Shown: piece by piece, positions 7,527 to 44,635 of the stretch | Position numbering within the stretch: position 1 is the first letter of the stretch | How the letters are laid out: each line of letters begins with the position of its first letter | Origin: Bacteroidales bacterium | GTDB lineage: Bacteria > Bacteroidota > Bacteroidia > Bacteroidales > UBA932 | NCBI GenBank assembly: GCA_017651225.1 | Contig: JAGCDF010000015.1 | Location: 1 to 48,105 of the forward strand | Length of the DNA stretch: 48,105 nt | Reading direction: 5' to 3' | Made by a program: the position numbers and the translations under genes | The notes under the pieces: model-generated | Told to the model about the DNA's origin: nothing | Database searches by the model: none | Seen by the model: only the letters and a program-made list of their open reading frames with translations

Positions 7527-8126
7527 CTATCTATGCCGGAAGGCGAGTTCGCGCTCGAGGTCGGGCAGGGAGACGCCCTGCTGCTCGAGCAGGACGAGCA
7601 GGTGATAGATCAGGTCGGAGGCTTCGTAGACGAAGCGGTCGCGGTTGCCGTCGACGGCCTCGATGACGGCCTCGCCGGCCTCCTCCACGACTTTCTTGCC
7701 GATGGCCTTGGGGCCCTTGATGAAGAGTTTGGTGGTGTAGGAGCCCTCCGGCATTTTGGCGTGGCGGTCGGCCACGACGCCCGCGAGGGTGCGGATGAAG
7801 CCCTCGTCCTCCGGCGTGTCGAAGCAGGCGGTGGTGCCGCGGTGGCAGGTGGGCCCGTCGGGGCGCGCCTTGATGAGCAGCGTGTCGGCGTCGCAGTCCG
7901 CGAACATCTCCACGACATGCAGGAAATTGTTGCTCGTTTCGCCCTTGGTCCAGAGCGTCTGCCGGCTGCGGGACCAGAAGGTCACCAGCCCCGTCTCGGC
8001 GGTCTTCTCGAACGCTTCCTTGTTCATATAGCCCAGCATCAGGACCTTGAGGGTCGTGGCGTCCTGGACAATCGCCGGCAGCAGGCCGTCGCCTGTCTTA
8101 TCTAATTTGAAGTCGCTGAATTTCAT
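7527..8126 (-). CDS. hisIE: Bifunctional phosphoribosyl-AMP cyclohydrolase / phosphoribosyl-ATP pyrophosphatase
   Basis: A 199-residue fusion catalysing steps 2 and 3 of histidine synthesis. The HisI part (about 1-110) shows TFWSRSRQTLWTKGETS and the metal-binding DCDADTLL and GPTCHRGTTACF with its cysteines and histidine. The HisE part (about 115-199) is a MazG-like helical domain with KKVVEEAGEAVIEA and YEASDLIYHLLVLL. It is the last gene of the operon; its start overlaps the hisF stop by 4 bases. The stop codon is followed almost directly by the palindromic promoter of the thiamine operon. The E-I order and fusion are typical of Bacteroidetes and enterobacteria. Confidence 0.96.
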   Translation of the reverse strand: MKFSDFKLDKTGDGLLPAIVQDATTLKVLMLGYMNKEAFEKTAETGLVTFWSRSRQTLWTKGETSNNFLHVVEMFADCDADTLLIKARPDGPTCHRGTTACFDTPEDEGFIRTLAGVVADRHAKMPEGSYTTKLFIKGPKAIGKKVVEEAGEAVIEAVDGNRDRFVYEASDLIYHLLVLLEQQGVSLPDLERELAFRHR

Positions 8127-8878
8127 ATTCTTACGTTGATTCCTGCGGCGCGGAGCGCCTGTTTGAGTTGCGGGATGGGGATCTGGCCGTAGTGGAAGAT
8201 GCTGGCGGCGAGGGCGGCGTCGGCGCGCCCCTCGGTCAGCACGCGGCGGATGTCCTCGACGGAGCCGGCGCCGCCCGAGGCGATCACCGGAATCGTGAGC
8301 TCATCCGTCAGGCGGGCGTAGACGTCGTCGGCGTAGCCGGCGCAGGTGCCGTCGTGGTCCATCGAGGTGAAGAGGATCTCGCCGGCACCGCGCTCCTGCG
8401 CCTCGCGGGCCCAGGAGAAGAGCTCCACGTCGGTCAGGCGTTTGCCGCCATGCGTGGTGCAGGTCCAGCGGCCCTCGATGCACTTGGCGTCAATGGCCAC
8501 CACGACGAACTGGCTGCCGTATTTCGAGGCGATCCGGCTGATGAGCGTCGGGTCGGCGATGGCGGCGCTGTTGACGGAGATCTTGTCGGCGCCGGCGTCC
8601 AGCAGGCGTGCGGCGTCCTCGATGCTGCCGATGCCGCCGCCCACGGTGAAGGGAATGTCGATGCCCTGGGCGATGCGCTCCACGAGCGCGGCGAAGGTGC
8701 GCCGTCCCTCCTGGGTGGCGCTGATGTCGAGGTAGACCAGCTCGTCGGCGCCGTCCCGGGAGTATTTCACGCCCATGTCCACGGCGTCGCCGACTTCGCG
8801 GAGCCCCTCGAAGTTGATGCCTTTGACGACCTGGCCGTCCTTTACATCGAGGCAGGGGATGATGCGCTTTGCGACCAT
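8123..8878 (-). CDS. hisF: Imidazole glycerol phosphate synthase cyclase subunit
   Basis: A 251-residue TIM barrel that, with HisH, converts PRFAR plus ammonia to imidazole glycerol phosphate and AICAR. The start MVAKRIIPCLDVKDGQVVKG is the canonical HisF N-terminus including the catalytic Asp at position 11; the second catalytic Asp lies in AIDAKC. The phosphate-binding loops IPFTVGGGIG and IPVIASGGAGS are present. Because this N-terminus is so well conserved, the 37-base overlap with the 3' end of hisA is probably real and not a wrong start. The gene lies between hisA and hisIE. Confidence 0.96.
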   Translation of the reverse strand: MVAKRIIPCLDVKDGQVVKGINFEGLREVGDAVDMGVKYSRDGADELVYLDISATQEGRRTFAALVERIAQGIDIPFTVGGGIGSIEDAARLLDAGADKISVNSAAIADPTLISRIASKYGSQFVVVAIDAKCIEGRWTCTTHGGKRLTDVELFSWAREAQERGAGEILFTSMDHDGTCAGYADDVYARLTDELTIPVIASGGAGSVEDIRRVLTEGRADAALAASIFHYGQIPIPQLKQALRAAGINVRI

Positions 8879-9585
8879 GACTTGATATCTTCCAGACTGA
8901 TACGGTTCTCAAAAATCGCCTTGCCCACGATGACTTTGCGCAGGTGCAGGGCGTCCAGCGCGCGGATGTCGGCCATGCCGGAGATGCCGCCGCTCACGGT
9001 GAAACTGATCTCGGGGAAATCCCGCTGCAGGTGCACGTAGAGCGCGGAAGCGGGGCCCTGCAGCATGCCGTCGCGGGAGATCTCCGTGACGATGCATTCC
9101 TGCAGCCCGAAACCCTGGAAGCGCGACACGAGGTCCTCGATGCTCAGTGCGACGGAATCCTGCCAGCCGGACACGGCGATGCGTCCGTTGCGCACGTCGG
9201 CGCCCAGGATCATCTTCGCGCCGAACTTCTTGAGCCAGGTCTCGAGCAGGTCCGGACGCCGGGCGGCGACGCTGCCGATGATGGCGTGCGTGGCGCCGGC
9301 GTCGAAGGCGGCCTGCACCGACGCCTCGTCGGAGAGTCCGCCGCCCCATTCTATTTCGCAGGACACGGCCTTGGCGATGGCCTCCAGCGTGGCGAGGTTC
9401 TTCGGGGCGCCGGCCTTGGCGCCGTCCAGGTCCACGAGGTGGATGCGCCGGACGCCGCAGTCGGCGTAGCTGCGGGCCACGTCGGCCGGGGAGCCGTCGT
9501 ACACCTTCTTCTGATAATAATCACCCTGGGTCAGGCGCACGCAGCGCCCGTCAATGAGGTCGATGGCGGGAACGATCTGGATCAT
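8842..9585 (-). CDS. hisA: ProFAR isomerase
   Basis: A 247-residue TIM barrel that isomerises ProFAR to PRFAR, step 4 of histidine synthesis. It begins MIQIVPAIDLIDGRCVRLTQG with the catalytic Asp at 9 and the family RLTQGDY loop. The second catalytic Asp is expected in TEISRDGMLQGP. Half-barrel phosphate motifs IEWGGGLSD and FTVSGGISG are clear. Its start overlaps the hisH stop by 4 bases, while its 3' end runs 37 bases into hisF, extending with a Ser/Ala-rich tail (QSASSPASM). HisF and HisA share ancestry by duplication, and here they also share DNA. Confidence 0.96.
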   Translation of the reverse strand: MIQIVPAIDLIDGRCVRLTQGDYYQKKVYDGSPADVARSYADCGVRRIHLVDLDGAKAGAPKNLATLEAIAKAVSCEIEWGGGLSDEASVQAAFDAGATHAIIGSVAARRPDLLETWLKKFGAKMILGADVRNGRIAVSGWQDSVALSIEDLVSRFQGFGLQECIVTEISRDGMLQGPASALYVHLQRDFPEISFTVSGGISGMADIRALDALHLRKVIVGKAIFENRISLEDIKSWSQSASSPASM

Positions 9586-10169
9586 AAGGCGAGGAAATTC
9601 TGGAGAATGGCCGCTCCGACGGAGCCGCTCTTCTCGGGGTGGAACTGGGTACCGTAGAAATTCTCATATTTCAGCGCTGCGCTGAAAAGCTGCTCCCCGT
9701 GGCGGCAGGTCGCGATGGTGTCGGGACACAGGCCGGGGAAGTAGGAGTGGACGAAATAGACGAAGCTGCCGCCGTCCAGGCCCTTGAACAGCTTGCTGTC
9801 CAGGTTGCCGATGGCGTTCCAGCCCATGTGGGGAACCTTGGCGTCCGGGGCCTCGGTGAAGCGGCGCACGTGGGCGTCGAAGATGCCCAGGCACTGCGTG
9901 GGGCCTTCCTCGGAGTCGCGGCACATCAGCTGCATGCCCACGCAGATGCCCAGCACGGGGCGGCGCAGGCTCTTGACGAGGCCGCACAGACCGCGGGCCT
10001 CCAGGCTCGCCATGGCCTCGGCGGCGTTACCCACGCCGGGGAGGATGACCTTGTCGGCCGCGAGGATGCGGGCGGGATCCGCGGTGAGTTCATATTCCGC
10101 GCCCAGACGCTGCAGGGCGTTGCCGACCGAACGGATGTTGCCGGCGTCGTAGTCGATGATCGCGATCAT
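9582..10169 (-). CDS. hisH: Imidazole glycerol phosphate synthase glutaminase subunit
   Basis: A 195-residue class I glutamine amidotransferase that feeds ammonia to HisF. The start is set at MIAIIDYDAGNIRSVGNAL, the usual HisH N-terminus; the frame stays open further upstream, but that stretch lies inside hisB in another frame and is not HisH-like. The catalytic triad is visible: Cys in GICVGMQLM, and His and Glu in GTQFHPEKSG. The ATG overlaps the hisB stop (ATGA), and its own stop overlaps the hisA start by 4 bases, indicating tight translational coupling along the operon. Confidence 0.96.
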   Translation of the reverse strand: MIAIIDYDAGNIRSVGNALQRLGAEYELTADPARILAADKVILPGVGNAAEAMASLEARGLCGLVKSLRRPVLGICVGMQLMCRDSEEGPTQCLGIFDAHVRRFTEAPDAKVPHMGWNAIGNLDSKLFKGLDGGSFVYFVHSYFPGLCPDTIATCRHGEQLFSAALKYENFYGTQFHPEKSGSVGAAILQNFLAL

Positions 10170-11224
10170 AGCAGTCCTTTGCTGGAAGGTAGGTCGTAAC
10201 TGAAAACATCGCGCCGCACCGCCTGCTTGAGCGAGCGGGCGAAGGCTTTGAAGATGCCTTCGGCGAGGTGGTGGTTGTTCTCGCCGCGCGCCTGCACGTA
10301 CAGGTTGGCGCGCATGGCGTCGGAGAGCGATTTGAAGAAATGCTTGAACATTTCCGTGGGCACGTCGCCCACGTACTCGCGGGTGAACTGCACGTCCCAG
10401 ACAAGCTCGCTGCGGCCGCCGAAGTCGAGCAGCACGATGGCGCGGCTCTCGTCCATCGGCAGGGCGAAGCCGTAGCGGTCGATGCCGCGCTTGTCGCCGA
10501 GGGCCTGGCGCAGCGCCACGCCGAGGGCGATGCCGACGTCTTCGATGGTGTGGTGCTCGTCGACCTCCAGGTCGCCTTTGCACTTGATTTCCAGGGCGAT
10601 GCCGCCGTGGTGGATGAGCTGCGTGAGCATGTGGTCGAAGAACTTCAGGCCGGTGTCGACGCCCGACGCGCCCTTGCCGTCCAGGTCCACGCGCACGTAG
10701 ATGTCCGTCTCGCCGGTCTTGCGGGCGACGGTCGCGCTGCGCGCGCTGCTGCGGATGGTCTCGGCGATCTCCGCCCAGCTCTTCTCGCCGACCAGCAGCG
10801 CCTGCGCGCCGAGGTTCTCCGCCAGCTGGCGGTCCGTCTCCCGGTCGCCGACGACCCAGCTGGCCGCGAGGTCGTAGGAGCCGTCGAGGTACTTGCCGAA
10901 CATCCCCGTGCCGGGCTTGCGGTTAGGGGACTTGTCGGCCGGGAAGGACGGGTCGATGAGGATGTCGTCGAAGACCACGCCTTCGCCTTCCATCGTGCGC
11001 TGCAGCAGGTTCTGGGCGGGCCAGAAGGTCTCCTCCGGGAAGGCGGGCGTGCCGAGACCGTCCTGGTTGGAGGCCATGACGAGCTCGTAGCCCAGGCCCG
11101 TGAGGGCTTTCAGGCCGCTGATGGCGCCGGGCACGAAGACGACCTTGTCCAGGGCATCGATCTGCTCGTCTGCGGGTTCGCACAGCAGGGTGCCGTCCCT
11201 ATCGATGAATATCGCCTTTTTCAT
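10166..11224 (-). CDS. hisB: Bifunctional histidinol-phosphatase / imidazoleglycerol-phosphate dehydratase
   Basis: A 352-residue fusion. Residues 1-165 are a HAD phosphatase with FIDRDGTL (nucleophile Asp), MASNQDGLGT and WVVGDRETD. Residues 170-352 are the IGP dehydratase with the manganese-binding FFDHMLTQLIHHGG, DEHHTIEDVGIALG and NNHHLAEGIFKAFARS. In the enterobacterial enzyme a Cys/His cluster in the phosphatase half binds zinc; here the matching stretch reads LIDPSFPADKSPNRKP, with all four ligands replaced. From memory this also holds in other Bacteroidetes HisB proteins, so it is probably a lineage trait. The start overlaps the hisC stop region by 26 bases. Confidence 0.95.
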   Translation of the reverse strand: MKKAIFIDRDGTLLCEPADEQIDALDKVVFVPGAISGLKALTGLGYELVMASNQDGLGTPAFPEETFWPAQNLLQRTMEGEGVVFDDILIDPSFPADKSPNRKPGTGMFGKYLDGSYDLAASWVVGDRETDRQLAENLGAQALLVGEKSWAEIAETIRSSARSATVARKTGETDIYVRVDLDGKGASGVDTGLKFFDHMLTQLIHHGGIALEIKCKGDLEVDEHHTIEDVGIALGVALRQALGDKRGIDRYGFALPMDESRAIVLLDFGGRSELVWDVQFTREYVGDVPTEMFKHFFKSLSDAMRANLYVQARGENNHHLAEGIFKAFARSLKQAVRRDVFSYDLPSSKGLL

Positions 11225-12251
11225 ATGCTTGCAGGGATTCTAACAGTTTATCGTTCTCGGACTTGAGTCCGATGGTGATGCGCAGGCAGCCCGCGCAGCC
11301 ACGGACGCGGTTGCGGTTGCGCACGATGATGCCGTCGGCGATCAGGTGCGCGTAGAGCGCGTCCGCGTCGTCCACCTGCACCAGCAGGAAGTTCGCGTCG
11401 CTCGGGTAGACGCGGCGCACGAAGCCGAAGGCGGGGAGCGTCGCGGCGATGCGCCGGCGCTGGGCCACGATCTCGGCCACCTGGCCGTCGACGGACTTGT
11501 CCAGCGCCGCGGAGACGAGCTCCTGGGTGGACTGGTTGATGTTGTACGGGTACTTGACCATCGACATCAGCGCGATGATGTACGGGCTGGCGAAGGCCAT
11601 GCCGAGGCGCAGTCCCGCGAGGCCGTAGGCCTTGGAGAGCGTCTGGAAGATGACCAGGTTGGGGAATTCCGCCAGGCGTCCGCGCAGGCTGCCCTGCGCG
11701 CTGAAGTCGGCGTAGGCCTCGTCCAGCACCACGATGCCCGGGAACTGGCGGATCAGCGCCTCCAGCTCCGCGGCCGGGAACGCGTTGCCCGACGGGTTGT
11801 TGGGGCTGCACAGGAAGAGCAGCTTGGTGTGCGCGTCGGCCGCGGCGAGCAGTTCTTTCGCGGGGAGGGCGAAGTCCGGCCCGAGCGGCACACGGCGCAT
11901 CTCGATGTCGTTGATGTCGGCGGCGACGTTGTACATGCCGTAGCTGGGGTCGATGGCGACGGCGTTGTCCACGCCCGGCGCACAGAAGATGCGGAACATC
12001 AGGTCGATGGCCTCATCGCTGCCGTTGCCGAGGAAGATGCTCTCCGCCGGCACGCCCTTGATGGCCGCCAGTTTGGCCTTGAGCGCCTTCTGGCGCGGAT
12101 CCGGATAGCGGTTCCAGCCGGTGGGGTAGGGGCTCTCGTTGGCGTCGAGGAAGATGCCGAGCGAGCCCTGGTATTCGTCGCGGGCCGTGCTGTAGGGGCA
12201 GAGGGCGCGTATGTTGGGGCGCACGAGCGCTTCGATATCCTGGCTATTCAT
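11199..12251 (-). CDS. hisC: Histidinol-phosphate aminotransferase
   Basis: A 350-residue fold-type I PLP enzyme that transaminates imidazole-acetol phosphate with glutamate. Family landmarks include FLDANESPYPTGWNRYPDP, FLGNGSDEAIDL, CSPNNPSGNAF, VVLDEAYADF, the PLP lysine in QTLSKAYGLAGLRLG and the C-terminal VRGCAGCLRITIG phosphate-binding Arg. The length is typical. Its start overlaps the hisD stop by 8 bases and its end runs 26 bases into hisB. The position between hisD and hisB supports histidine synthesis over the related aromatic aminotransferases. Confidence 0.95.
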   Translation of the reverse strand: MNSQDIEALVRPNIRALCPYSTARDEYQGSLGIFLDANESPYPTGWNRYPDPRQKALKAKLAAIKGVPAESIFLGNGSDEAIDLMFRIFCAPGVDNAVAIDPSYGMYNVAADINDIEMRRVPLGPDFALPAKELLAAADAHTKLLFLCSPNNPSGNAFPAAELEALIRQFPGIVVLDEAYADFSAQGSLRGRLAEFPNLVIFQTLSKAYGLAGLRLGMAFASPYIIALMSMVKYPYNINQSTQELVSAALDKSVDGQVAEIVAQRRRIAATLPAFGFVRRVYPSDANFLLVQVDDADALYAHLIADGIIVRNRNRVRGCAGCLRITIGLKSENDKLLESLQAYEKGDIHR

Positions 12252-13527
12252 TTTGCAGGCGGATTTTGACGGCGTTGGCGTGGGCCTGCAGGCCCTCCGC
12301 TTCCGCCATGGTGACGATGGTGGCCGACAGGCCGCGCAGGCCTTCCGGCGTGAGCTCCTGCAGGGTCATCTTGCGGTAGAAACTGTCCAGGTTGACCCCG
12401 CTGAAGGAGCGGGCCCAGCCGCAGGTGGGCAGGGTGTGGTTGGTGCCGGAGGCGTAGTCGCCCGCGCTTTCCGGGGTCCATGCGCCGACGAACACGCTGC
12501 CGGCGGCCGTGACGCGCTCGGCGAAGCCCCAGGCGTCAGCGACGGACAGGATGAGGTGCTCGGGGGCGTAGGCGTTCGCGAAGGCGATGCGGTCCTCCTG
12601 CTCGGAGAACACGACGCAGCGGCTCTTCTCGAGCGCCTGGCGCACGAAGTCGGCGCGGGGCAGTTCGCGGGTCTGCCGCTCCACCTCCGCGCGGACGGCT
12701 TCCGCGGTCGCGGCGTCGGGGCAGACCAGCATCACCTGGCTGTCCACGCCGTGCTCGGCCTGCGAGAGCAGGTCCGCGGCGGCGAAAGAGGCCGGCGAGC
12801 TGCCGTCGGTGACGACCATCACCTCGGACGGTCCGGCGGGCATGTCGATGGCCACGGTGCCGGCCGACAGGAGCTGCTTGGCCGTGGTGACGTACTGGTT
12901 GCCGGGGCCGAAGATCTTGTCGACCTTCGGGACGGTCTGCGTGCCGTAGGCCATGGCGGCCACGGCCTGGGCGCCGCCCAGCTTGAAGATGCGTTGCACG
13001 CCGCAGTAGGCGGCCGTGTAGAGGACTTCCGCGTTGACCTTGCCGTCCTTGCCGGACGGGGTGCAGAGCACCACCTCGGGGCACTGGGCGATCTTCGCCG
13101 GCACGGCGAGCATCAGCACGGTGGAGAAGAGGGGCGCGGTGCCGCCCGGGATGTAGAGACCTACGCGCTCGATGGGCACGGGGCGCTGGATGCAGCGCAC
13201 GCCGGGGGCCGTCTCGACGCTGACTTCGCGCGGGCGCTGCGCTTCGTGGAAGGCGCGGATGTTCGCCTCCGCCTGCGCCACGGCGCGCTTGACGGCGCCG
13301 CTCACGCGCACCTCCGCCTCGAGGATCTCCTCGGGGCTCACTTCGATCGCGCCCAGCGGGCGGCCGTCGATCTCTTCCGACAGGGCCCGGAGCGCATCGT
13401 CACCCTGCTCGCGCACGCGCTGCAGGATGGCTTCCACCCGGGCGCGGACCGTCGGATTGGCGGCCGAAGGACGGGCGCAGAGCGCCTCCCATTGATCCCG
13501 GGACGGGTTGATATAGGTCTCCAGCAT
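12244..13527 (-). CDS. hisD: Histidinol dehydrogenase
   Basis: A 427-residue zinc enzyme for the last two oxidations, from histidinol to histidine. Visible motifs are VGLYIPGGTAPLFSTVLM, the NAD-site KLGGAQAVAAMAYGT, KIFGPGNQYVTTAKQ, MPAGPSEVMVV, the zinc-binding AEHGVDSQV, APEHLIL and the catalytic GDYASGTNHTLPT. It sits 3 bases after hisG in the order G-D-C-B typical of his operons. The length matches the family and no key residue is missing as far as can be read. Confidence 0.96.
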   Translation of the reverse strand: MLETYINPSRDQWEALCARPSAANPTVRARVEAILQRVREQGDDALRALSEEIDGRPLGAIEVSPEEILEAEVRVSGAVKRAVAQAEANIRAFHEAQRPREVSVETAPGVRCIQRPVPIERVGLYIPGGTAPLFSTVLMLAVPAKIAQCPEVVLCTPSGKDGKVNAEVLYTAAYCGVQRIFKLGGAQAVAAMAYGTQTVPKVDKIFGPGNQYVTTAKQLLSAGTVAIDMPAGPSEVMVVTDGSSPASFAAADLLSQAEHGVDSQVMLVCPDAATAEAVRAEVERQTRELPRADFVRQALEKSRCVVFSEQEDRIAFANAYAPEHLILSVADAWGFAERVTAAGSVFVGAWTPESAGDYASGTNHTLPTCGWARSFSGVNLDSFYRKMTLQELTPEGLRGLSATIVTMAEAEGLQAHANAVKIRLQNE

Positions 13528-13530
13528 GGT

Positions 13531-14382
13531 TTACGGAATAAGCTTGTCGATATTCAGGACCAGGATGCCCTCGGCGCCGATGGCCTTGAGCTGCTTGATC
13601 TTGTCCCAGAGGTCGTCCTCGTCCACCACGGAGTGCATGGAGCACCAGCCCTCGGCGGCGAGCGGCATCACGGTCGGGCTGCGCATGGCGGGCAGGATGC
13701 GCGTCGCTTCCTCGACGGAGGCCTGCGGGAGGTTCATCAGGATGTATTTCTTGCGGCGGCTGACCATGGCGGAGTCGATGCGGAAGAGCATCTCGTCCAG
13801 GATTTCCTGCTGGTCGGGCGTCAGGTCTCCGCTGGAGATGAGCACCGCTTCGGACCAGAACACCTTCTCGACTTCCACCAGGCCGTTGGACACGAGCGTG
13901 CCGCCGGAGGAGACGATGTCGAAGATGGCGTCGGCGATGTCGGCGGCGGGGGCGATTTCCACGGAACCCGTGATCACTTCGATCCGGGCCTCGATGCCCT
14001 GCTCGTCCAGCCATTTCTTCAGGATGCGGGGGTAGGAGGTCGCGATGCGCTTGCCCGCGAACCACTTCGGTCCGGTATAGTCCACGGTCTTGGGCACGGC
14101 CAGCGAGATGCGGCAGGCGCCGAAACCGAGTTTCTTGACGATCTGCACCGGGAGACCGTGCTCCTCAACCTCGTTGAGGCCGACGATGCCGAGCGCGGCG
14201 GTGCCGCTGGAGACGACCCCGGGGATGTCGTCATCGCGCATATAAAGGAGTTCCAGGGGGAAATTGGGAGCCTGGGACAGGAATTTCCGGCGAGAATCGT
14301 CAATGTCGATCCCGATCTCGCGCAGCAGGGCGGTACTGTCTTCGTTCAACCGGCCCTTGGATTGGATGGCTAATCTTATCAT
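13531..14382 (-). CDS. hisG: ATP phosphoribosyltransferase, long form
   Basis: The 283-residue committed-step enzyme, joining ATP to PRPP. The start MIRLAIQSKGRLNE is typical. The catalytic part covers about 1-215, with the PRPP-binding stretch VEIAPAADIADAIFDIVSSGGTL. The C-terminal ACT-like domain (about 215-283) of the long, hexameric form is present, so it should be feedback-inhibited by histidine and should not need HisZ; no hisZ is seen nearby. It is the first enzyme gene after the leader peptide and attenuator, separated from the terminator by about 58 bases. Confidence 0.95.
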   Translation of the reverse strand: MIRLAIQSKGRLNEDSTALLREIGIDIDDSRRKFLSQAPNFPLELLYMRDDDIPGVVSSGTAALGIVGLNEVEEHGLPVQIVKKLGFGACRISLAVPKTVDYTGPKWFAGKRIATSYPRILKKWLDEQGIEARIEVITGSVEIAPAADIADAIFDIVSSGGTLVSNGLVEVEKVFWSEAVLISSGDLTPDQQEILDEMLFRIDSAMVSRRKKYILMNLPQASVEEATRILPAMRSPTVMPLAAEGWCSMHSVVDEDDLWDKIKQLKAIGAEGILVLNIDKLIP

Positions 14383-14410: not shown

Positions 14411-14436
14411 GTCATTCCGGGCTTGACCCGGAATCT
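14411..14436 (+). repeat. REP-like hairpin repeat, copy 1 (GTCAT...ATCT flanks)
   Basis: A 26-base hairpin with flanks GTCAT and ATCT, a GC-rich stem and the 5-base loop CTTGA. It lies between the his attenuator terminator and hisG, so it would be transcribed in the hisG leader. Two relatives with compensatory stem changes lie at 23070-23098 and 23237-23262. Function unknown; may be a dispersed palindromic element. Confidence 0.65.
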
Positions 14437-14439
14437 ATG

Positions 14440-14470
14440 AAAAAAGGCTTACCGATATTCCGGCAAGCCT
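14440..14470 (-). terminator. his attenuator terminator hairpin
   Basis: On the minus strand AGGCTTGCCG and CGGTAAGCCT form a 10-bp stem (one G-U pair) around the loop GAATAT, followed by six U residues at 14445-14440. This is a textbook intrinsic terminator placed between the His-codon leader peptide and hisG. Confidence 0.9.
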
Positions 14471-14526
14471 CTCTCAACGCAACACGCACGCACACGACGA
14501 CCTACCGGATCCTCAGATTCGGTGGT
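14460..14526 (-). promoter_or_regulatory. his attenuator alternative helices (pause and antiterminator)
   Basis: Segment 14508-14499 (CCGGTAGGTC on the minus strand) can pair over ten contiguous positions, three of them wobbles, with 14469-14460 (GGCTTGCCGG), which is the 5' arm of the terminator. The same segment can also pair with the His-codon stretch ACCACC at 14526-14521, with one bulge. The segment begins 4 nt after the leader stop codon. A ribosome stalled on His codons would free it to form the antiterminator; a ribosome at the stop codon would cover it and allow termination. Pairing is seen; regulation is inferred from classical his attenuation. Confidence 0.82.
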
Positions 14527-14554
14527 GATGGTGATATGCGCGCAGTTGTGTCAT
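14513..14554 (-). CDS. hisL: Histidine operon leader peptide with four consecutive His codons
   Basis: A 13-residue reading frame MTQLRAYHHHHRI ending in TGA. Codons 8-11 are CAC-CAT-CAC-CAC. It lies upstream of hisG, downstream of a consensus promoter, and before an antiterminator and terminator pair, just as in the enterobacterial his leader, whose peptide also begins Met-Thr and carries seven His. Scarcity of charged His-tRNA would stall the ribosome here and let transcription reach hisG. It is too short for normal gene finders. The ATG is about 8 nt after the promoter -7 box, so the message has almost no 5' leader. Confidence 0.9.
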   Translation of the reverse strand: MTQLRAYHHHHRI

Positions 14555-14562
14555 ACGTTCTG

Positions 14563-14593
14563 CAAATATAGGGTTTATTTCCGGAAATTCAAA
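14563..14593 (-). promoter_or_regulatory. his operon promoter
   Basis: Minus-strand TTTG at 14593-14590 and TATATTTG at 14570-14563 are separated by 19 nt, fitting the Bacteroidetes -33/-7 consensus. The -33 box lies within the last codons of clpP. The start of transcription is expected within a few bases of the hisL ATG. Confidence 0.8.
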
Positions 14594-15258: not shown

Positions 15259-17001
15259 TTAGTTGTCAAAACCGATTTTAGGCCGTTTGGGGGCCGACAG
15301 GGAAGAAGGATTGCAGCGGAGGGATTCCTCCAGAATCTGCTGCGAGATGGGCTCGTCGGCGAGCGCCGCCACCATCGCCGATTCGTTGACGACGAAGGCG
15401 ATGTCGGACGAGGCATAGCCGTCGGACAGGAGGGCGAGGCGGCTCAGGTCGATGTCCTCGGTGGTGGGGCGGCCCTTCAGGTGCAGCGCGAACATGGCCC
15501 GGCGCGTCTCGGGATTCGGGGCCGGAATCTCGTATTTCAGGTCCATGCGGCCCTTGCGGAGCACGGCCGGGTCGATCATGTCGATGCGGTTGGTCGTGCC
15601 GATTACGAAAATGCCGCGCTCGGCGCAGTTGTTCAGCTGCGAGAGGAATTCGTTCACCTCCTCCGCACGGTTCCGCGCAGAATCGGATCCGCGGGCGGGG
15701 ACGAAGGAATCGAATTCGTCGAAGCAGATCACGGACGGGGCGTTCTCGGCGGCCTTCTTGAAGAGATCGGCGATCTTGCCCTGGGTGCCGTGGATATAGG
15801 TGCTGCCGAGGTCGGAGCCGTTCACGAGGTAGTAGTTGAAGCCGGATTCCTCGGCGAATTTCTTGGCAAAGAAGGTATTGCCGCAGCCCGGAGGGCCGTA
15901 GAGCCGCATGCCGTTGGGGGGCAGCAGCCGGTATTTTGCGGCCTTCTCCTTGTCCTGCAGGACCCAGATGACGCGGCGCAGCAGTTCCTGTTTGAGATCG
16001 TTCATGCCTGCCACGTCGGCGAAGCCTCCTTGCCCGGCGCGGTTCTTCTGCGCCTGGAGTGAGACCTGGTCCTCGCGAGGCTGGTCCGTCGGCTCCTGCG
16101 TCGGGTCCGGCTGGGGCGCGCTGTCCTCCTTCAGGGTAATCTCCGCAGGGGAGAAATCTTCCGTGAGGGTCTTGAGCAGGATGGCTGCGTCCGGCCGTTG
16201 TGCCGGGTCGAAGTTCAGGCAGACGCTGATGACGGCGTCCAGTTCCGGATCGTAGGTGGCACCTTTCGGATATTCCAGGGCGTTCTGGCGGGCGCGCCCG
16301 ATGCTGATCTTGCGGGAATAGAAGGAGTCGTGCACGCCGATGTTGCAGTGCCAGGGCTCTTGTCCGGTGAGCATGGTGAAGAGGATGGCGCCGAGGGAGA
16401 AAATGTCACTTTTCTCGTTGAAGGAGTCTTTCAGTGCTTCCGGAGCAACGTAGAAGAGGTTGAGGTCCTCCATGGGGAAGGGGACGGGCCCGTTCAGGTC
16501 GCCGTGGGTGTGGCCCAGGTCGATAATTTTCGGCGTAACGCCGTCCGGGGTGGACTCCAGCAGGATGTTGCGCGGGGTGAGGTCGTTGTGGTTGAGGTCC
16601 AGCTCGTCGTGCAGGTACACGAGTCCCTCCAGGATGGGGATGAGGATGGATTTGGCCTCGGCGGCGGAGAACTTGCGCCCCTCGCGGAGCACTTCCGACA
16701 GGAGCTTGCCCTCGAAGAACTTCGTGATCAGGTACTGGAATTCCTTACCGTTGATCTTGCCGGAACCGTCCGCGACATAGCGGATGATGCCCGGGTGCGA
16801 GATGCGGCGTGCGTGGACGATTTCCTCCACGACGCCGTCCACCAGCATCTTGTCCGGCATGCGCGACACGTCGAAGAATTTCATGAAGAAAAGCGCGCCC
16901 TGGGCGTCCTTCACGATGTAGCTGTCGTTGTACAGGCCCGCCTTGATGAAGCGGTGGATGAAGTAGTCCCCGAAGGGGGTGAATTCCGGAAGCCGTGTCA
17001 T
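15259..17001 (-). CDS. Protein kinase-like domain fused to an AAA+ ATPase with altered Walker A and C-terminal IGF
   Basis: A 580-residue two-domain protein. Residues 10-280 resemble a Ser/Thr protein kinase: Lys in FFMKFFDVS, LNHNDLTPRNILL in place of HRDxxxxN, IIDLGHT in place of DFG, APE in FYVAPEALKD, and DIFSLGAIL; the glycine loop is poor. A low-complexity linker (about 290-330) leads to a classical FtsH/Cdc48-like AAA+ module: FADVAGMNDLKQELL, Walker A GPPGCGNT at about 369-376, Walker B VICFDEFDSF, sensor GTTNR and arginine finger LRKGRMD. The Walker A lysine is replaced by Asn375. The chain ends PKRPKIGFDN, so IGF is residues 576-578, like the ClpP-docking tripeptide of ClpX/ClpA. 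clpP follows 12 bases downstream. Domain calls are firm; function is open. Confidence 0.85.
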   Translation of the reverse strand: MTRLPEFTPFGDYFIHRFIKAGLYNDSYIVKDAQGALFFMKFFDVSRMPDKMLVDGVVEEIVHARRISHPGIIRYVADGSGKINGKEFQYLITKFFEGKLLSEVLREGRKFSAAEAKSILIPILEGLVYLHDELDLNHNDLTPRNILLESTPDGVTPKIIDLGHTHGDLNGPVPFPMEDLNLFYVAPEALKDSFNEKSDIFSLGAILFTMLTGQEPWHCNIGVHDSFYSRKISIGRARQNALEYPKGATYDPELDAVISVCLNFDPAQRPDAAILLKTLTEDFSPAEITLKEDSAPQPDPTQEPTDQPREDQVSLQAQKNRAGQGGFADVAGMNDLKQELLRRVIWVLQDKEKAAKYRLLPPNGMRLYGPPGCGNTFFAKKFAEESGFNYYLVNGSDLGSTYIHGTQGKIADLFKKAAENAPSVICFDEFDSFVPARGSDSARNRAEEVNEFLSQLNNCAERGIFVIGTTNRIDMIDPAVLRKGRMDLKYEIPAPNPETRRAMFALHLKGRPTTEDIDLSRLALLSDGYASSDIAFVVNESAMVAALADEPISQQILEESLRCNPSSLSAPKRPKIGFDN

Positions 17002-38218: not shown

Positions 38219-40048
38219 ATGAAATATCGTAGTAGTGTAACCTTCGAAGGCCGCAGGATGGCCGGGGCCCGTGCGCTTTGGATGGCCGATGGGATGAAGC
38301 GGAGCCAGTTTGGCAAACCGGTCATCGCCATCGCGAATTCCTTCACGCAATTTGTCCCCGGTCATACGCATCTTCACGATGCCGGCCAGATTGTCAAGGC
38401 CGAGATCGAGAAGCTGGGTTGCTTCGCGGCTGAATTCGACACGATCGCCGTGGACGATGGCATTGCCATGGGCCACGACGGCATGCTGTATTCCCTCCCG
38501 TCCCGTGACATCATCGCGGACAGCGTGGAATATATGGTCAACGCGCATAAGGCGGACGCGCTCGTGTGCATCAGCAACTGTGACAAGATTACCCCGGGCA
38601 TGATGCTGGCCGCGATGCGGCTCAACATCCCGACCATCTTCGTGTCGGGCGGCCCGATGGAAGCCGGCGTCCTGGGCGAGGCGAAGCTCGACCTGATCGA
38701 CGCGATGATCAAGTCCGCGGATCCTTCCGTGACGGACGACCAGGTGGCCGAGATCGAGGCGCACGCCTGCCCGACCTGCGGCAGCTGCTCCGGTATGTTC
38801 ACGGCCAACTCGATGAACTGCCTCTCCGAGGCCATCGGCCTGGCCCTGCCCGGCAACGGCACCATCCTCGCCACGCACGCGATGCGCGCGGAGCTCTTCC
38901 GCAAGGCGGCGCGCCAGATCGTGGAGAACACCTACAAGTATTATAACGACGGCGACGAATCCGTGCTGCCCCGCAGCATCGCCTCGCGCGCCGCGTTCCT
39001 CAACGCCATGACGCTCGACATCGCCATGGGGGGCTCGACCAACACGGTCCTGCACCTGCTGGCCGTGGCGGCCGAGGCGGGCGCGGACTTCAAGATGGCC
39101 GACATCGACGCCCTGTCCCGCAAGGTCCCCTGCATCTGCAAGGTGGCCCCGAACACGGCGAAGTACCATATCCAGGACGTGGGCCGCGCCGGCGGCATCG
39201 TGTCCATCATGGCCGAGCTGGCCAAGGCCGGCCTGGTCGACACCACGCTCAAGCGTGTGGACGGCATGACCCTCGCCGAGGAGATTGACAAATGGTGCAT
39301 CCTCTCCCCGAATTGCACGGCGGAGGCGAAGAACACCTATCGCGTCGCGCCCTGCGGCCGCTTCAACATCGAGCTCGGCTCGCAGAAGATGTACTACGAC
39401 AGCTTCGACACCGACCGCGCCGAAGGCTGCATCCGCGACGTGGCGCACGCCTACACCCGCGACGGCGGCCTGGCCGTGCTCTTCGGCAACATCGCCCAGG
39501 ACGGCTGCATCGTCAAGACGGCCGGCGTGGACGAGAGCATTTTCCATTTCGAGGGCCCGGCCCGCGTGTTCGACTCCCAGGAGGCGGCCTGCGAGGGCAT
39601 CCTCGGCGGCAAGGTGGGCAGCGGCGACGTGGTCGTCATTACCTACGAGGGCCCGAAGGGCGGCCCCGGCATGCAGGAAATGCTGTATCCGACTTCGTAT
39701 ATCAAATCGATGCACCTGGGCAAGGAGTGCGCCCTGCTGACGGACGGCCGTTTCAGCGGCGGTACCTCCGGCTTGAGCATCGGACATATTTCCCCCGAAG
39801 CGGCCTCCGGCGGCAACATCGCCCTGGTCCGCGACGGAGACATCATTGTGATTGACATCCCTTCCCGCCGCATCGAGGTGCGGCTCAGCGACGGGCAGCT
39901 CGCGGAGCGCCGCCGCACGGAGGAGGCCCGGGGCCGCAAGGCCTTCACGCCGCCGTTCCGCCAGCGCGAGGTGTCCAAGAGCCTCAAGGCGTACGCCGCC
40001 ATGGTGAGCAGCGCGGACAAGGGAGCCATCCGGATCATTGAAGACTAA
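38219..40048 (+). CDS. ilvD: Dihydroxy-acid dehydratase
   Basis: A 609-residue iron-sulfur enzyme for the third common step of valine and isoleucine synthesis. Cluster ligands are in [12 protein letters not shown] and [20 protein letters not shown] (the fully conserved C-x2-C pattern), with a first Cys expected earlier in the chain, and [14 protein letters not shown] is present. The C-terminal swivel domain shows [22 protein letters not shown]. It starts the ilv-leu operon, divergent from thrA. Length matches the ILVD family and distinguishes it poorly from phosphogluconate dehydratase, but the ilv context decides the call. Confidence 0.95.
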
Positions 40049-40053
40049 AGCGT

Positions 40054-41772
40054 ATGGGACAGCGATTGACAGGAGCCGAGATTCTGCTGGAGTCTCTCAT
40101 CGCCGAAGGGGTGGACACCGTCTTCGGCTATCCGGGCGGTTCGATCATCACCGTCTATGACAAGATGTACAGCTACCAGGACCGTCTGAAGCACATCCTG
40201 GTACGCCATGAACAGGGTGCGATCCACGCCGCGCAGGGCTACGCCCGCGCCACGGGCCGCCCCGGCGTCGTGATTGTGACCTCGGGTCCGGGCGCCACCA
40301 ACGTGATCACCGGCGTGGCCGACGCGATGGTGGATTCCACCCCGGTCATCGTGATCGCCGGCCAGGTGGGCAACGCCTCGCTGGGCACCGACGCCTTCCA
40401 GGAGACGGACGTGGTCGGCATGACCGGTCCGATCGACAAGTGGACCTACCAGATCCGCCGGCCCGAAGACGTGGCCCCGGCGGTCGCCAAAGCCTTCCAC
40501 ATCGCCTCCACGGGCCGTCCCGGCCCCGTGGTGCTGGACTTTACCAAAGACGCCCAGGTGGGCGTGGGCTGGTTTGAATATGAGAAATGCGATCACATCC
40601 GCAGCTACGCGCTGCCGGCGCCCGCCGACGAGGCGGCCCTGGACGCGGCGGCGGAGCTGATCGACAACGCCGAGCGCCCCTTCGTGGTGTTCGGCCAGGG
40701 CGTGGTGATTTCCCACGCGGAGGAGCAGCTGAAGGCCTTCCTGAAGAAGGGCGGCATCCCGGCGGCCTCCACGATGCTGGGCCTGAGCGCCCTGCCGTCC
40801 GACTTCCCGTACTACGTCGGCATGGCCGGCATGCACGGCAACGTGGCCTCCAACATGATGACGCAGAAGTGCGACGTGCTCATCGCCGTCGGCATGCGTT
40901 TCAGCGACCGCGTCACGGGCACGCCGTCCCACTACGCGCCGAACGCGAAGGTGATCCACATCGACGTGGACCGCACCGAGATCGGCAAGATTATCCCGGT
41001 CGACGTGGGCATCCTGGGCGACGCCGCCGAGGTGCTGGAGCGCCTGACCGCGAAGATCAAATTCTCCTTCCACGACGAGTGGGCCGCTTCCGCGCGCCAC
41101 TACGACGCCGTGGAGAAGGCCAAGGTGGCCGCGCCCGAGACCACGCCCGAGGAGGGCCCGATCAACATGGGCGAGGTGGTGTCCAAAGTGGCCGAACTGT
41201 CCGGCCGCAAGGCCATCATCGTCACCGACGTGGGCCAGAACCAGCTGATGGGCGCGCGCTATTCCCGTTTCGCGGACACGCGCAGCTTCATCAGTTCCGG
41301 TGGCCTGGGCACGATGGGCTTCGGCCTGCCGGCCGCCATCGGCGCCAAGGTGGGCGAGCCCGGCCGCCAGGTCTGCCTCTTCGTGGGCGACGGCGGCATC
41401 CAGATGACCATCCAGGAGCTGGGCACGATCATGCAGGAGGGGACGGCGGTCAAGATCGTCATCCTGAACAACAACTGGCTCGGCAACGTCCGCCAGTGGC
41501 AGGAGCTCTTCTTCGGCGAGCGCTACTCGCAGACGCGCCTGCTCAACCCGGACTACTCCCTGATCGCGAAGGCCTACGGCATCCGTTACCGCTGCGTGTC
41601 CGACCGCAAGGAGCTGGACGACGCGATCCGCGAGATGCTGGACGCGAAGGAGGCCTACATCCTCGACGCCCACGTGGTCGAGATGGGCATGGTCTATCCG
41701 ATGGTCCCCGGCGGACGCCGGCTGGACGAGATCCTGTTGAACAAAGATGAATGGTATCGCGATGGAGAATAG
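40054..41772 (+). CDS. ilvB: Acetolactate synthase, large (catalytic) subunit
   Basis: A 572-residue ThDP enzyme that forms acetolactate from two pyruvates or acetohydroxybutyrate from pyruvate and 2-oxobutyrate. The ThDP-activating Glu lies in LVRHEQGAIHAAQGYARATG; AYPGG-type FGYPGGSIITVYD, the FAD region GMAGMHGNVASNMM and the ThDP motif FVGDGGIQMTIQELGTI...NNNWLGNVRQWQELFF are present. It starts 5 bases after ilvD. Its end overlaps the regulatory-subunit start by 11 bases, indicating equimolar coupled translation. Confidence 0.95.
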   Translation: MGQRLTGAEILLESLIAEGVDTVFGYPGGSIITVYDKMYSYQDRLKHILVRHEQGAIHAAQGYARATGRPGVVIVTSGPGATNVITGVADAMVDSTPVIVIAGQVGNASLGTDAFQETDVVGMTGPIDKWTYQIRRPEDVAPAVAKAFHIASTGRPGPVVLDFTKDAQVGVGWFEYEKCDHIRSYALPAPADEAALDAAAELIDNAERPFVVFGQGVVISHAEEQLKAFLKKGGIPAASTMLGLSALPSDFPYYVGMAGMHGNVASNMMTQKCDVLIAVGMRFSDRVTGTPSHYAPNAKVIHIDVDRTEIGKIIPVDVGILGDAAEVLERLTAKIKFSFHDEWAASARHYDAVEKAKVAAPETTPEEGPINMGEVVSKVAELSGRKAIIVTDVGQNQLMGARYSRFADTRSFISSGGLGTMGFGLPAAIGAKVGEPGRQVCLFVGDGGIQMTIQELGTIMQEGTAVKIVILNNNWLGNVRQWQELFFGERYSQTRLLNPDYSLIAKAYGIRYRCVSDRKELDDAIREMLDAKEAYILDAHVVEMGMVYPMVPGGRRLDEILLNKDEWYRDGE

Positions 41773-42070
41773 CAATATGTATATCATCTCGGTGTACTCC
41801 GAGAACCAGGTGGGTCTGTTGAGTTCGATCTCGAACATCTTCACCCGCCGCGGCATCAACATCGAGAGCCTGACGGTGTTCCCGTCCGAGTTCCCGGGCA
41901 TCCACCATTTCACCTTCCGGGCCATCACCACCGAGCGCGCCGCGCAGCAGGTGGTGGGCTTCATCGAGAAGAAGGTGGAGGTGGTGAAGGCCTTCTGCTT
42001 CCCGGACAATTCGACGAGCGCCGCCGAACACGGCATCATGGAAGAATATTTACAAAACAGAAACCAATAA
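41762..42070 (+). CDS. ilvN: Acetolactate synthase, small (regulatory) subunit, short ACT-only form
   Basis: A 102-residue protein made almost only of the N-terminal ACT domain: MYIISVYSENQVGLLSSISN, FTRRGINIESLTVF, then a short tail. Feedback by valine acts through this domain in characterised enzymes. Many small subunits, including IlvH, are about 160-190 residues with a second C-terminal domain; that part is missing, as in the about 96-residue E. coli IlvN. The ATG at 41762 is preferred; another at 41747 would add five residues and deepen the overlap with ilvB. Followed 13 bases later by ilvC. Confidence 0.9.
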   Translation: MENSNMYIISVYSENQVGLLSSISNIFTRRGINIESLTVFPSEFPGIHHFTFRAITTERAAQQVVGFIEKKVEVVKAFCFPDNSTSAAEHGIMEEYLQNRNQ

Positions 42071-42083
42071 AAACAAAAAGAGT

Positions 42084-43127
42084 ATGGCAAAGATGAATTT
42101 CGGCGGCGTGGTCGAGAATGTCGTCACCCGCGATGAGTTTACGATCGAAAAGGCACGCGAAGTCCTCAAGAACGAAGTTGTGGCCGTGATCGGCTACGGT
42201 GTCCAGGGTCCTGGACAGTCCCTGAACCTCAAGGACAACGGCATCAACGTCATCGTCGGCCAGCGTCCCGGCAAGACCTTCGACAAGGCTGTCGCTGACG
42301 GCTGGGTGCCCGGCAAGACCCTCTTCAGCATCGAGGAGGCCTGCGAGAAAGCGACCGTGATCGAATACCTGCTCTCCGACGCCGCCCAGATCGCCCAGTG
42401 GCCCGTGGTCAAGAAGCACCTGACCGCCGGCAAGGCGCTCTATTTCTCCCACGGCTTCGGCATCACCTTCAACGACCGCACCGGCATCATCCCTCCGAAG
42501 GATGTCGACGTGATCATGGTGGCCCCGAAGGGCTCCGGCACCTCCGTGCGCCGTCTGTTCCTGCAGGGCCGCGGCATCAACTCCTCCTTCGCCGTCTACC
42601 AGGACGCCACCGGCCGCGCCCTCGAGCGCACCCTGGCCCTCGGTATCGCCATCGGCTCCGGCTACCTCTTCGAGACCGACTTCAAGCGTGAGGTCTACTC
42701 TGACCTGACCGGCGAGCGCGGCACCCTGATGGGCGCCATCCAGGGCATCCTGTCCGCCCAGTACGAAGTGCTGCGCGAGCATGGCCACTCCCCGTCGGAG
42801 GCCTTCAACGAGACCGTCGAGGAGCTGACCCAGTCCCTGATGCCGCTCTTCGCGGAGAAGGGTATGGACTGGATGTATGCCAACACCTCTACGACCGCCC
42901 AGCGCGGCGCCCTCGACTGGATGGGCCCGTTCCACGACGCTACCAAGCCCGTGTTCGAGAAGCTCTACAACGAGGTGGCCAGCGGCCGTGAAGCCCAGCG
43001 TTCCATCGACTCCAACTCCAAGCCGGACTACCGCGAGGGTCTGGAGAAGGAACTGAAGGCCCTGCGCGACAGCGAACTCTGGCGCACCGGCGCCGCCGTC
43101 CGTGAACTGCGTCCTGAAAACAAGTAA
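42084..43127 (+). CDS. ilvC: Ketol-acid reductoisomerase
   Basis: A 347-residue NAD(P)H and magnesium enzyme, second common step of valine/isoleucine synthesis. The Rossmann loop [21 protein letters not shown] is clear, as are the His region [33 protein letters not shown], and the metal-binding acidic residues around [17 protein letters not shown] and [12 protein letters not shown]. The length suits the class I fold with an extended C-terminus. The 5' leader (AACAAAAAGAGT) is A-rich, common before strongly translated Bacteroidetes genes. Biased codon use suggests high expression. Confidence 0.95.
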
Positions 43128-43132
43128 TCCCT

Positions 43133-44632
43133 ATGGATAACAACCGGATCTACATCTTCGACACCACCCTGCGCGACGGTGAACAGGTGCCCGGCTGCCA
43201 GCTCAACACCGTGGAGAAAATCCAGGTGGCGAAGGCGCTGGAAGAGCTCGGCGTGGATGTGATCGAGGCCGGCTTCCCGGTCTCGAGTCCCGGCGACTTC
43301 AACTCGGTCGTGGAGATCTCCAAGGCCGTGACCTGGCCCACCGTCTGCGCCCTTACCCGGGCGGTGCAGAAGGATATCGACGCCGCGGTGGATGCGCTCA
43401 AGTTCGCGAAACACAAGCGCATCCATACCGGCATCGGTACGTCCGACTCGCACATCCGCTACAAGTTCAACTCCACGCGGGAGGAGATCCTGGAGCGGGC
43501 CGTGCGTGCCGTGAAGTACGCCCGCCAGTTTGTCGACGACGTGGAGTTCTACGCCGAAGACGCCGGGCGCACCGAGAACGCCTTCCTGGCCCAGGTGGTC
43601 GAGGCCGTGATCAAGGCCGGCGCCACCGTGGTGAACATTCCCGACACCACGGGCTACTGCCTGCCCGAGGAATACGGCGCCAAGATCAAGTACCTGATGG
43701 AGCATGTGGACGGCGTCGACAAGGCCATCCTCTCCACCCACTGCCACAACGACCTCGGCATGGCCACGGCCAATACGATGTCCGGCCTGCTGAACGGCGC
43801 TCGCCAGTGCGAGGTGACGATCAACGGCGTGGGCGAGCGCGCGGGCAACACCGCGCTCGAGGAGATTGCCATGATCCTGAAGAGCCATTCCGACATTCCC
43901 CTCCAGACCAACATCAACACGACGCGCATCTATCCGGTCAGCCGGATGGTGTCGAGCCTGATGAACATGCCCGTGCAGGCCAACAAGGCCATCGTGGGCC
44001 GCAACGCCTTCGCGCACTCGTCCGGTATCCACCAGGACGGCGTGCTCAAGGAGGTGAGCACCTACGAGATCATCGATCCCAAGGACATCGGCCTGGACGA
44101 CAACAACATCGTGCTGACGGCCCGCAGCGGCCACGCCGCCCTGCGCTACCGCCTGGAGACCCTGGGCATCAAGCTGACCGACGAGAAGCTGGACGCCTTC
44201 TACCAGGAGTTCCTCAAGCTGGCCGACAAGAAGAAGCAGGTCAACGACGACGACCTGCTCGTGCTGGCCGGCGCCGAGCGCGCGGCCGTGGCCCACATCA
44301 AGCTGGACTATCTCCAGGTGACGAGCGGCAAGGGCCTCAAGCCCGTCGCGAGCATTGGCCTGGACATCGCCGGCGAGAAGTTCGAGGGCGCGGCCCAGGG
44401 CAACGGCCCGGTCGACGCCGCCATCAATGCGCTCAAGAGCATCGTCCACCGCCAGATGGTGATCAAGGAATTCACCATCCAGAACATCACCAAGGGCTCG
44501 GACGACGTGGCGAAGGTGCACATGCAGGTGGAGCACGAGGGGCACGTCTACTACGGCTTCGGCGCCAACACGGACATCGTGACCGGTTCCGTGGAGGCTT
44601 ACATTGACTGTATCAACAAATTCCAGAACTAG
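43133..44632 (+). CDS. leuA: 2-isopropylmalate synthase
   Basis: A 499-residue first enzyme of leucine synthesis, condensing acetyl-CoA with 2-oxoisovalerate. The TIM barrel starts [17 protein letters not shown] with the metal Asp, continues with [28 protein letters not shown], the metal-binding [13 protein letters not shown], and [15 protein letters not shown]. After the linker with [11 protein letters not shown] comes the C-terminal leucine-feedback (LeuA dimer) domain at about 385-499. It begins 5 bases after ilvC and lies 3 before leuC. A paralogue lies at the end of the window. Confidence 0.94.
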
Positions 44633-44635
44633 GAA

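Follow-up and report, generated by a model that had tools for sequence, protein, structure and literature searches.

A putative leader-peptide attenuator upstream of the histidine operon in Bacteroidota

For a stalling ribosome to attenuate transcription, it has to stay close behind RNA polymerase. Of the described systems, the enterobacterial hisL leader (RF00514) is the closest to the element presented here: it likewise comprises a short ORF with a run of His codons before hisG, an intrinsic terminator and alternative pairings, and it follows the same logic. The Bacteroidota leader differs from hisL in having one antiterminator strand and a 5' UTR of only a few nucleotides, and no use of a Shine-Dalgarno sequence is expected. 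Outside Proteobacteria, leader-peptide attenuators have been described in Actinobacteria (PMC1262725, available part). According to the available sections of PMC2965389, no leader-peptide system was known beyond Proteobacteria and Actinobacteria as of 2010, ermC aside, and that work added a His leader of hisZ/hisS in bacilli. These attenuators of Actinobacteria and bacilli likewise combine a codon-run leader with a terminator, but, as far as the available texts go, in other phyla and before other genes. A study of attenuators outside Proteobacteria by Lopatovskaya et al. (2010), cited in the available part of PMC4833913, might cover Bacteroidetes.

For the phylum itself, the available text of PMC9723704 reports that hisG of Flavobacterium psychrophilum is preceded by a structured 5' element, also present in other genera of Flavobacteriaceae and without a match in Rfam, and gives strong clues to leader-peptide attenuation before amino-acid operons. 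Judged by that text, PMC9723704 is clear prior art for part of our finding. It concerns the same gene in the same phylum; in its available part a His run, helices or an antiterminator are not mentioned, and conservation is named within Flavobacteriaceae. It is the sole mention of a Bacteroidota hisG leader that our literature search located in the accessible portions of the sources; those of PMC6429828 and PMC6847099 contain nothing on such a leader. Work on the his genes of the superphylum (PMC8305728, accessible portion) mentions attenuation once, for S. enterica and E. coli. Small ORFs of B. thetaiotaomicron reminiscent of leader peptides are reported in PMC7366714, in whose accessible portion the word 'histidine' is absent. 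Bacteroid-trp appears as a cis-regulatory candidate of Bacteroidetes in Table 1 of PMC2864571, and Bacteroidia are described as making no use of Shine-Dalgarno sequences (PMC6847099, PMC9976891; all three sources available in part). As far as we searched, the spread beyond Flavobacteriaceae, the geometry, the very short 5' UTRs, the tandem copies and the counterparts with Tyr and Asn runs are apparently new.

As an RNA family the his leader is new, its type of mechanism being known already, and it is distinct from the Rfam family His_leader. None of 19 loci from the phylum (18 with a His leader and one with a Tyr leader) reached the gathering score of RF00514 (49 bits), while the E. coli control scored 131.6 bits; this family was also absent among the matches of the window leader at E ≤ 10. 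By the window we mean the whole stretch of 48,105 nucleotides that was analyzed, in which no Rfam family, the T-box riboswitch included, matched at its gathering score. At E ≤ 10 the leader matched Thr_leader (23.9 bits, cut-off 55) and ES003 (15.3 bits, cut-off 37), and Termite-leu (RF01730) gave 20.8 bits for a cut-off of 51; we rejected all three as lying under their cut-offs. The T-box is not among the three leader matches at E ≤ 10, and no match of Bacteroid-trp (RF01692) is listed for the leader at that threshold. From their names, we take Bacteroid-trp and Termite-leu to be cis-regulatory RNAs of trp and leu genes.

The window is one contig of a draft genome of 1.87 Mb (79% complete). 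Its HisG is identical to that of L091, the MAG RUG11407 ('uncultured Bacteroidia bacterium'). On the minus strand, clpP is followed by the leader region and then by hisG, hisD, hisC, hisB, hisH, hisA, hisF and hisIE:

15246-14575, minus strand: clpP, ending just upstream of the leader region and read in the same direction
13531..14382, minus strand: hisG, the first gene under the proposed control (TIGR00070 and TIGR03455 above cut-off)
12244..13527, minus strand: hisD (TIGR00069 above cut-off)
11199..12251, minus strand: hisC (TIGR01141 above cut-off)
10166..11224, minus strand: hisB, bifunctional (NF003937 above cut-off)
9582..10169, minus strand: hisH, start approximate, the match (TIGR01855, above cut-off) running from residue 140 of a longer ORF, 9582-10583
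8842..9585, minus strand: hisA (TIGR00007 above cut-off)
8123..8878, minus strand: hisF (TIGR00735 above cut-off)
7527..8126, minus strand: hisIE (NF002747 above cut-off)

Adjoining clpP, a gene for a protein of 580 residues (15259-17001, minus strand) shows protein-kinase-like matches in its N-terminal part and matches to FtsH/CDC48-like AAA ATPases in its C-terminal part, every listed domain match being under the cut-off of its family.

The region between clpP and hisG contains the following parts:

14563..14570, minus strand: -7 box of the Bacteroidota sigma-A type, TATATTTG (TAnnTTTG), from the sequence and the consensus in PMC9723704
14558, minus strand: predicted transcription start, from the -7 box and its placement in PMC9723704
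14554 (ATG) to 14515-14513 (TGA), minus strand: ORF of a 13-residue leader peptide, MTQLRAYHHHHRI, from the sequence and conserved His-rich leaders
14522..14533, minus strand: four consecutive His codons, CAC CAT CAC CAC, from the sequence
14516..14526, minus strand: strand 1 (approximate), the last His codons and the Arg-Ile codons, from the minimum-free-energy (MFE) fold, weak against shuffles
14499..14508, minus strand: strand 2, 5' arm of the antiterminator, CCGGTAGGTC, from pairing, covariation and folding with a masked ribosome
14460..14469, minus strand: strand 3, GGCTTGCCGG, common to antiterminator and terminator, from pairing, covariation and folding
14446..14454, minus strand: strand 4, 3' arm of the terminator, CGGTAAGCC, from pairing, covariation and hairpin energy
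14440..14445, minus strand: U tract of the intrinsic terminator, six T in the DNA, from the sequence
14414..14434, minus strand: dispersed, REP-like palindromic repeat (14411-14434 for the whole element TTCCGGGTCAAGCCCGGAATGAC), an inverted repeat in the gap between terminator and hisG

The palindromic repeat has 36 further matches scattered over the genome and is probably not part of the switch. An earlier note on this DNA had described a 13-residue leader with four consecutive His codons, a 10-bp terminator with six U and a segment, 14508-14499, complementary to the terminator's 5' arm. All of these are present where the note puts them, and strand 2 pairs with strand 3 at 10 of 10 positions. 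The terminator hairpin has a calculated energy of -19.8 kcal/mol, and the leader as a whole folds better than its shuffles (z = -4.98; none of 200 as good). A simple terminator scan of the window leader found 0 sites, which may be due to the stem running on into the U tract. As to the note's further proposal, that the His codons are the alternative partner of segment 14508-14499, the MFE fold of the window does contain a 1:2 pairing via the last two His codons, but the energy of this helix is no better than that of shuffles (-14.8 versus -15.2 kcal/mol). Over 153 loci the mean energy of the 1:2 helix is better than that of shuffles (-12.9 versus -9.9 kcal/mol), and in 139 of 153 half or more of strand 2 is paired upstream, but in extent of pairing the shuffles are not far behind (7.09 versus 6.16 nt). 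Being weak against shuffles, the 1:2 helix is the least secure part of the switch and was rejected as independent evidence.

For the 'consensus promoter' of the note, a promoter of the Bacteroidota type with the box TATATTTG is the more fitting description; a sigma-70-like match lies beside it (TTGAAT-16-TATATT, 9 of 12 positions, with 0.4 such matches by chance in shuffles of the scan). A TTG at 14592-14590, within the end of clpP, may be the upstream promoter element. The available text of PMC9723704 places the TAnnTTTG box at -12 to -5, and the predicted start is therefore at about 14558. The 5' UTR would then be about 4 nt long, and the terminated RNA would measure about 119 nt, in place of the roughly 110 nt given before. 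Of 222 loci with a His leader, 151 have TAnnTTTG in the 60 nt that precede the leader start (9.1 expected). Where the 5' UTR could be set (157 loci), its predicted median is 15 nt, and in 26 of these loci it is 5 nt or less.

Based on comparison and modeling, we are confident that the his leader is best explained as a ribosome-mediated transcription attenuator of hisGDCBHAF-IE. It combines an ORF with His codons, an intrinsic terminator, a mutually exclusive and covarying antiterminator and, in silico, a structure that depends on the position of the ribosome. Within this mechanism, translation of the leader, termination, the response to histidine and kinetic capture are inferred. Transcription would begin about 4 nt ahead of the leader ATG; a ribosome would load at once, without Shine-Dalgarno pairing. 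When charged tRNA-His is scarce, this ribosome would stall at one of the four His codons and cover strand 1, leaving strand 2 free. Strand 2 could then capture strand 3 before strand 4 is synthesized, so that no terminator forms and hisG-IE is transcribed. With plentiful histidine the ribosome would reach the stop codon, 4 nt before strand 2, and cover strand 2; with no ribosome on the leader, strand 1 would hold it. In both cases strand 2 would be blocked, strands 3 and 4 would form the terminator, and transcription would end at about 119 nt. For this lineage we also infer a tight coupling of transcription and translation.

For comparison, hisG upstream regions were collected from the family (match in 87 of 199 genomes, 82 used, best-scoring first), from named genomes (80), from the order (match in 96 of 198 genomes, 69 used, best-scoring first) and from the phylum (match in 171 of 198 genomes, 69 used: the best 49 and 20 chosen ones); lower-scoring and partial hisG matches were left out. 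Removal of 9 duplicates from these 300 regions left 291, and 4 shorter than 200 nt were excluded from the 300-nt test, leaving 287. A His leader was defined as an ORF of at most 45 residues with at least three His in five codons, not more than 300 nt upstream of hisG. The earlier note had proposed conservation of the His run as a check, and it is borne out: 219 of the 287 regions, a set containing related and thus not independent sequences, have such an ORF, whereas about 3 were expected from letter shuffles. By group, the leader is present in 65 of 80 regions of the family (1.1 expected), 46 of 72 of the named genomes (0.6), 53 of 66 of the order (0.5), 40 of 41 of other orders of the class (0.6) and 15 of 28 of other classes of the phylum (0.3). 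The other 18 amino acids were scored in the same way, Met being left out, and the highest totals were those of Leu (76 of 287) and Ile (71). Widening the search to 400 nt gave 222 of 291 loci. The element, which had been called unusually complete, is typical among the loci compared. We regard it as a genuine histidine attenuator of an ordinary type, found widely in the phylum and, as far as searched, for the most part not described before.

In 69 of the 291 regions no His leader was found under the criteria used; 18 of these have a strong upstream terminator. Three of the regions (L032, L110 and L224) are too short to judge, and one counted as leaderless (L072) has a run of His codons and a terminator at the start of its contig. 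The others include many MAGs labelled Prevotellaceae. None of the seven loci L301-L307, with HisG of about 30% identity, has a His leader.

Downstream of the leader, a terminator of -12 kcal/mol or better is found in 199 of 222 loci, compared with 1.1% of 444 shuffles. From the last His codon to the terminator (-8 kcal/mol or better) the group medians are 53-56 nt. The position of strand 2 was searched without a positional floor, from a point 40 nt upstream of where the His run ends; among 146 loci with a duplex of -9 kcal/mol or better, strand 2 starts 10-19 nt past the last His codon in 115, and shuffles show no such peak. Strand 2 would thereby start immediately past the edge of a ribosome that has stalled at the His run. 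A search starting 9 nt past the last His codon gave a duplex of -8 kcal/mol or better in 153 of 199 loci. In 119 of these 153, at least 4 nt of strand 2 would lie under a ribosome positioned at the stop codon, and the remaining 34 misfit this geometry. Taken singly, the antiterminator pairing has p ≤ 0.05 in 109 of 199 loci (50 shuffles each).

Covariation was analyzed in an alignment made by MAFFT without structure, from 45 loci picked by hand among those of the family, the named genomes and the order; 3 loci with no detected terminator were dropped, and the mean column identity of the remaining 42 is 42%. Both helices, whose covariation the earlier note had proposed as a check, scored above shuffled and slid versions, the helix structure being taken from the window, which favours the unslid version. 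For the 2:3 helix, 77.9% of the pairs are standard (70.7% shuffled, at most 47.2% slid) and the covariation score is 0.354 (0.241 shuffled, best slid 0.136). The corresponding values of the 3:4 helix are 97.1% (88.2% shuffled, 59.8% slid) and 0.466 (0.274 shuffled, 0.175 slid). In these 42 loci, 2:3 pairs changed on both sides are not above shuffles (4 versus a mean of 3.2), and further pair types of 2:3 are below them (17 versus 18.1). In several loci strand 2 seems to be misaligned, and this would depress the values for 2:3.

A covariance model (R1) was built on 24 of the 42 aligned loci. In the window's own genome its only strong match is this site (59.3 bits); 13 weaker matches begin at 31 bits, and the five of them that were inspected look like plain gene-end terminators. 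Terminators of this kind are common, and clpP ends at 14575, just upstream and in the same direction, so that the hairpin might simply be the terminator of clpP or of a small RNA, with His codons by chance. We consider this very improbable in view of the co-occurrence of leader and terminator before hisG, which holds for 202 of 222 loci at -8 kcal/mol or better and is nearly absent away from hisG: in 81 sequences (the 80 named loci and the window) there are 48 cases of a His ORF with terminator before hisG, compared with 2 in about 0.99 million strand-bases elsewhere. The upstream open frames, where found, end differently (20 loci), and a clpP terminator would account neither for the promoter that precedes the leader in the 151 loci given above nor for a covarying antiterminator.

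The attenuator reading was further analyzed by folding with masked ribosomes. The mask of a stalled ribosome hides all upstream RNA, that of a terminating ribosome its footprint only, and the controls received identical masks. With RNA polymerase just past strand 3 and any of the four His codons in the A site, 9.9 of the 10 antiterminator pairs form in the window leader; 2:3 pairing is 0.0 with no ribosome or with the ribosome at the stop codon. Once the terminator is complete it wins in every state computed, the stalled ribosome included, and the switch must therefore be kinetic. Over 200 loci the terminator arm is captured upstream at 0.40 without a ribosome, 0.72 with a stalled one and 0.32 with one at the stop, compared with 0.47, 0.50 and 0.42 when the spacers are shuffled. 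By a switch criterion fixed before the single run on these loci, 134 of 200 pass, versus 36 of 200 with shuffled spacers. A similarly simplified folding script gave 0.38 (no ribosome), 0.57 (stalled) and 0.38 (at the stop) for E. coli hisL, a weaker shift in the same direction. Thus the window folding and the 200-locus run, together with conservation and covariation, lend in silico support to the earlier suggestion that ribosome stalling controls hisG-IE.

R1 was also searched against 149 genomes of the family, where its matches at E ≤ 1e-3 lie mostly before hisG. Six that were inspected do not precede an intact hisG: L352 and L353 have leaders with four Tyr codons, L356 has an Asn-rich leader before asnA, L357 has a His leader, and L354 and L355 were rejected, as they are plain terminators and no codon-run leader precedes them. 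The gene that follows the Tyr leaders scores above the cut-off of NF009709 (named tryptophanase) and under the equivalog cut-offs of both tyrosine phenol-lyase and tryptophanase, with the higher score for tyrosine phenol-lyase. On these sequence matches it is assigned to the tryptophanase/tyrosine phenol-lyase family. A set of 22 loci of this clade (L352, L353 and 20 chosen from matches of about 563-588 bits, 30 loci of about 695-712 bits being left out) contains a Tyr-rich short ORF in 10, seven of which also have a strong terminator (L352, L353, L423, L427, L430, L432 and L433; e.g. MNINRAYYYSYYYYRTYRG...). Two Tyr leaders in series, each with its terminator, are present at three loci of the clade. 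The window's own genome has a member of this gene family, and no such leader was found before it. An Asn-rich leader with a strong terminator is found at 2 of 30 asnA loci (L369 and L379), 30 of 61 matches having been examined; an example of the Asn-run leaders before asnA at L356, L369 and L379 is MTFLRNNNNLFNNSNNNHIRTGRLLLLNK. We do not claim that the Tyr leaders arose by copying of the his leader, since the highest-scoring local alignments (57 and 59, shuffled maximum 28) span only the spacer end and the terminator.

If the Tyr leaders work like the his leader, the gene behind them would be switched on when tyrosine is short, a behaviour more in keeping with a role in biosynthesis than with one in degradation. 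That like leaders have runs of Tyr codons before this gene and of Asn codons before asnA is consistent with sensing by the codons and stands against an alternative that we rate as still less probable than a clpP terminator, namely that the leader RNA is a riboswitch or a protein-bound histidine attenuator, with a His run that is there by accident or for structural reasons. In favour of this alternative, RNA structure and a strand 2 resembling GGTAGG do recur among the loci. Yet an ATG in frame with the His run is found in 214 of 222 loci, both His synonyms are used in the runs (CAT 766 times, CAC 285 times), and the 42 aligned sequences share a mean column identity of only 42%. Just as improbable is a leader peptide that arrests its own ribosome with free histidine, as TnaC does, and not via a lack of charged tRNA-His; the sequence alone is compatible with such nascent-peptide sensing, but outside the His run the peptides have little sequence in common between genera and vary in length and stop position, a divergence unlike that of arrest peptides.

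Returning to the attenuator reading, we lean slightly towards a broader one, in which Bacteroidota would possess a general, modular platform for leader-peptide attenuation, old enough to extend past a single class of the phylum. Its codon run would be swapped according to the gene and its modules doubled, and its leader ORFs would begin within a few to about 20 nt of the transcription start, without Shine-Dalgarno use. If this is true, the first ribosome of this phylum would stay close behind RNA polymerase. The his leader could serve as a natural reporter for transcription-translation coupling in Bacteroidota, where translation starts without Shine-Dalgarno pairing, and the proposed codon-run rule allows one to predict the signal to which further genes behind such leaders respond. 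The finding also suggests how histidine synthesis may be controlled in a phylum that is common in the gut.

The window contains a second amino-acid operon at 38219-46599, with ilvD, ilvB, a small ORF, ilvC, leuA, leuC and leuD. A codon-run leader with a terminator was sought upstream of this ilvD-led operon and, unlike for his, none was seen. Here leuA is not first in its operon, and leuA in relatives was therefore set aside as a second case.

Two complete modules of His leader and terminator in series were observed at 7 of the 291 loci (L191, L197, L199, L214, L215, L222 and L230). Four MAGs labelled Akkermansia (L129, L133, L135 and L142) have a Bacteroidales-like hisG, 58% to the query, and are possibly mislabelled; a strong terminator without a His leader lies upstream of it. 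The broken hisG of L357 (G034) is still preceded by the His leader MYARNNNNHHHHHIFLR with a terminator, at about 471-620.
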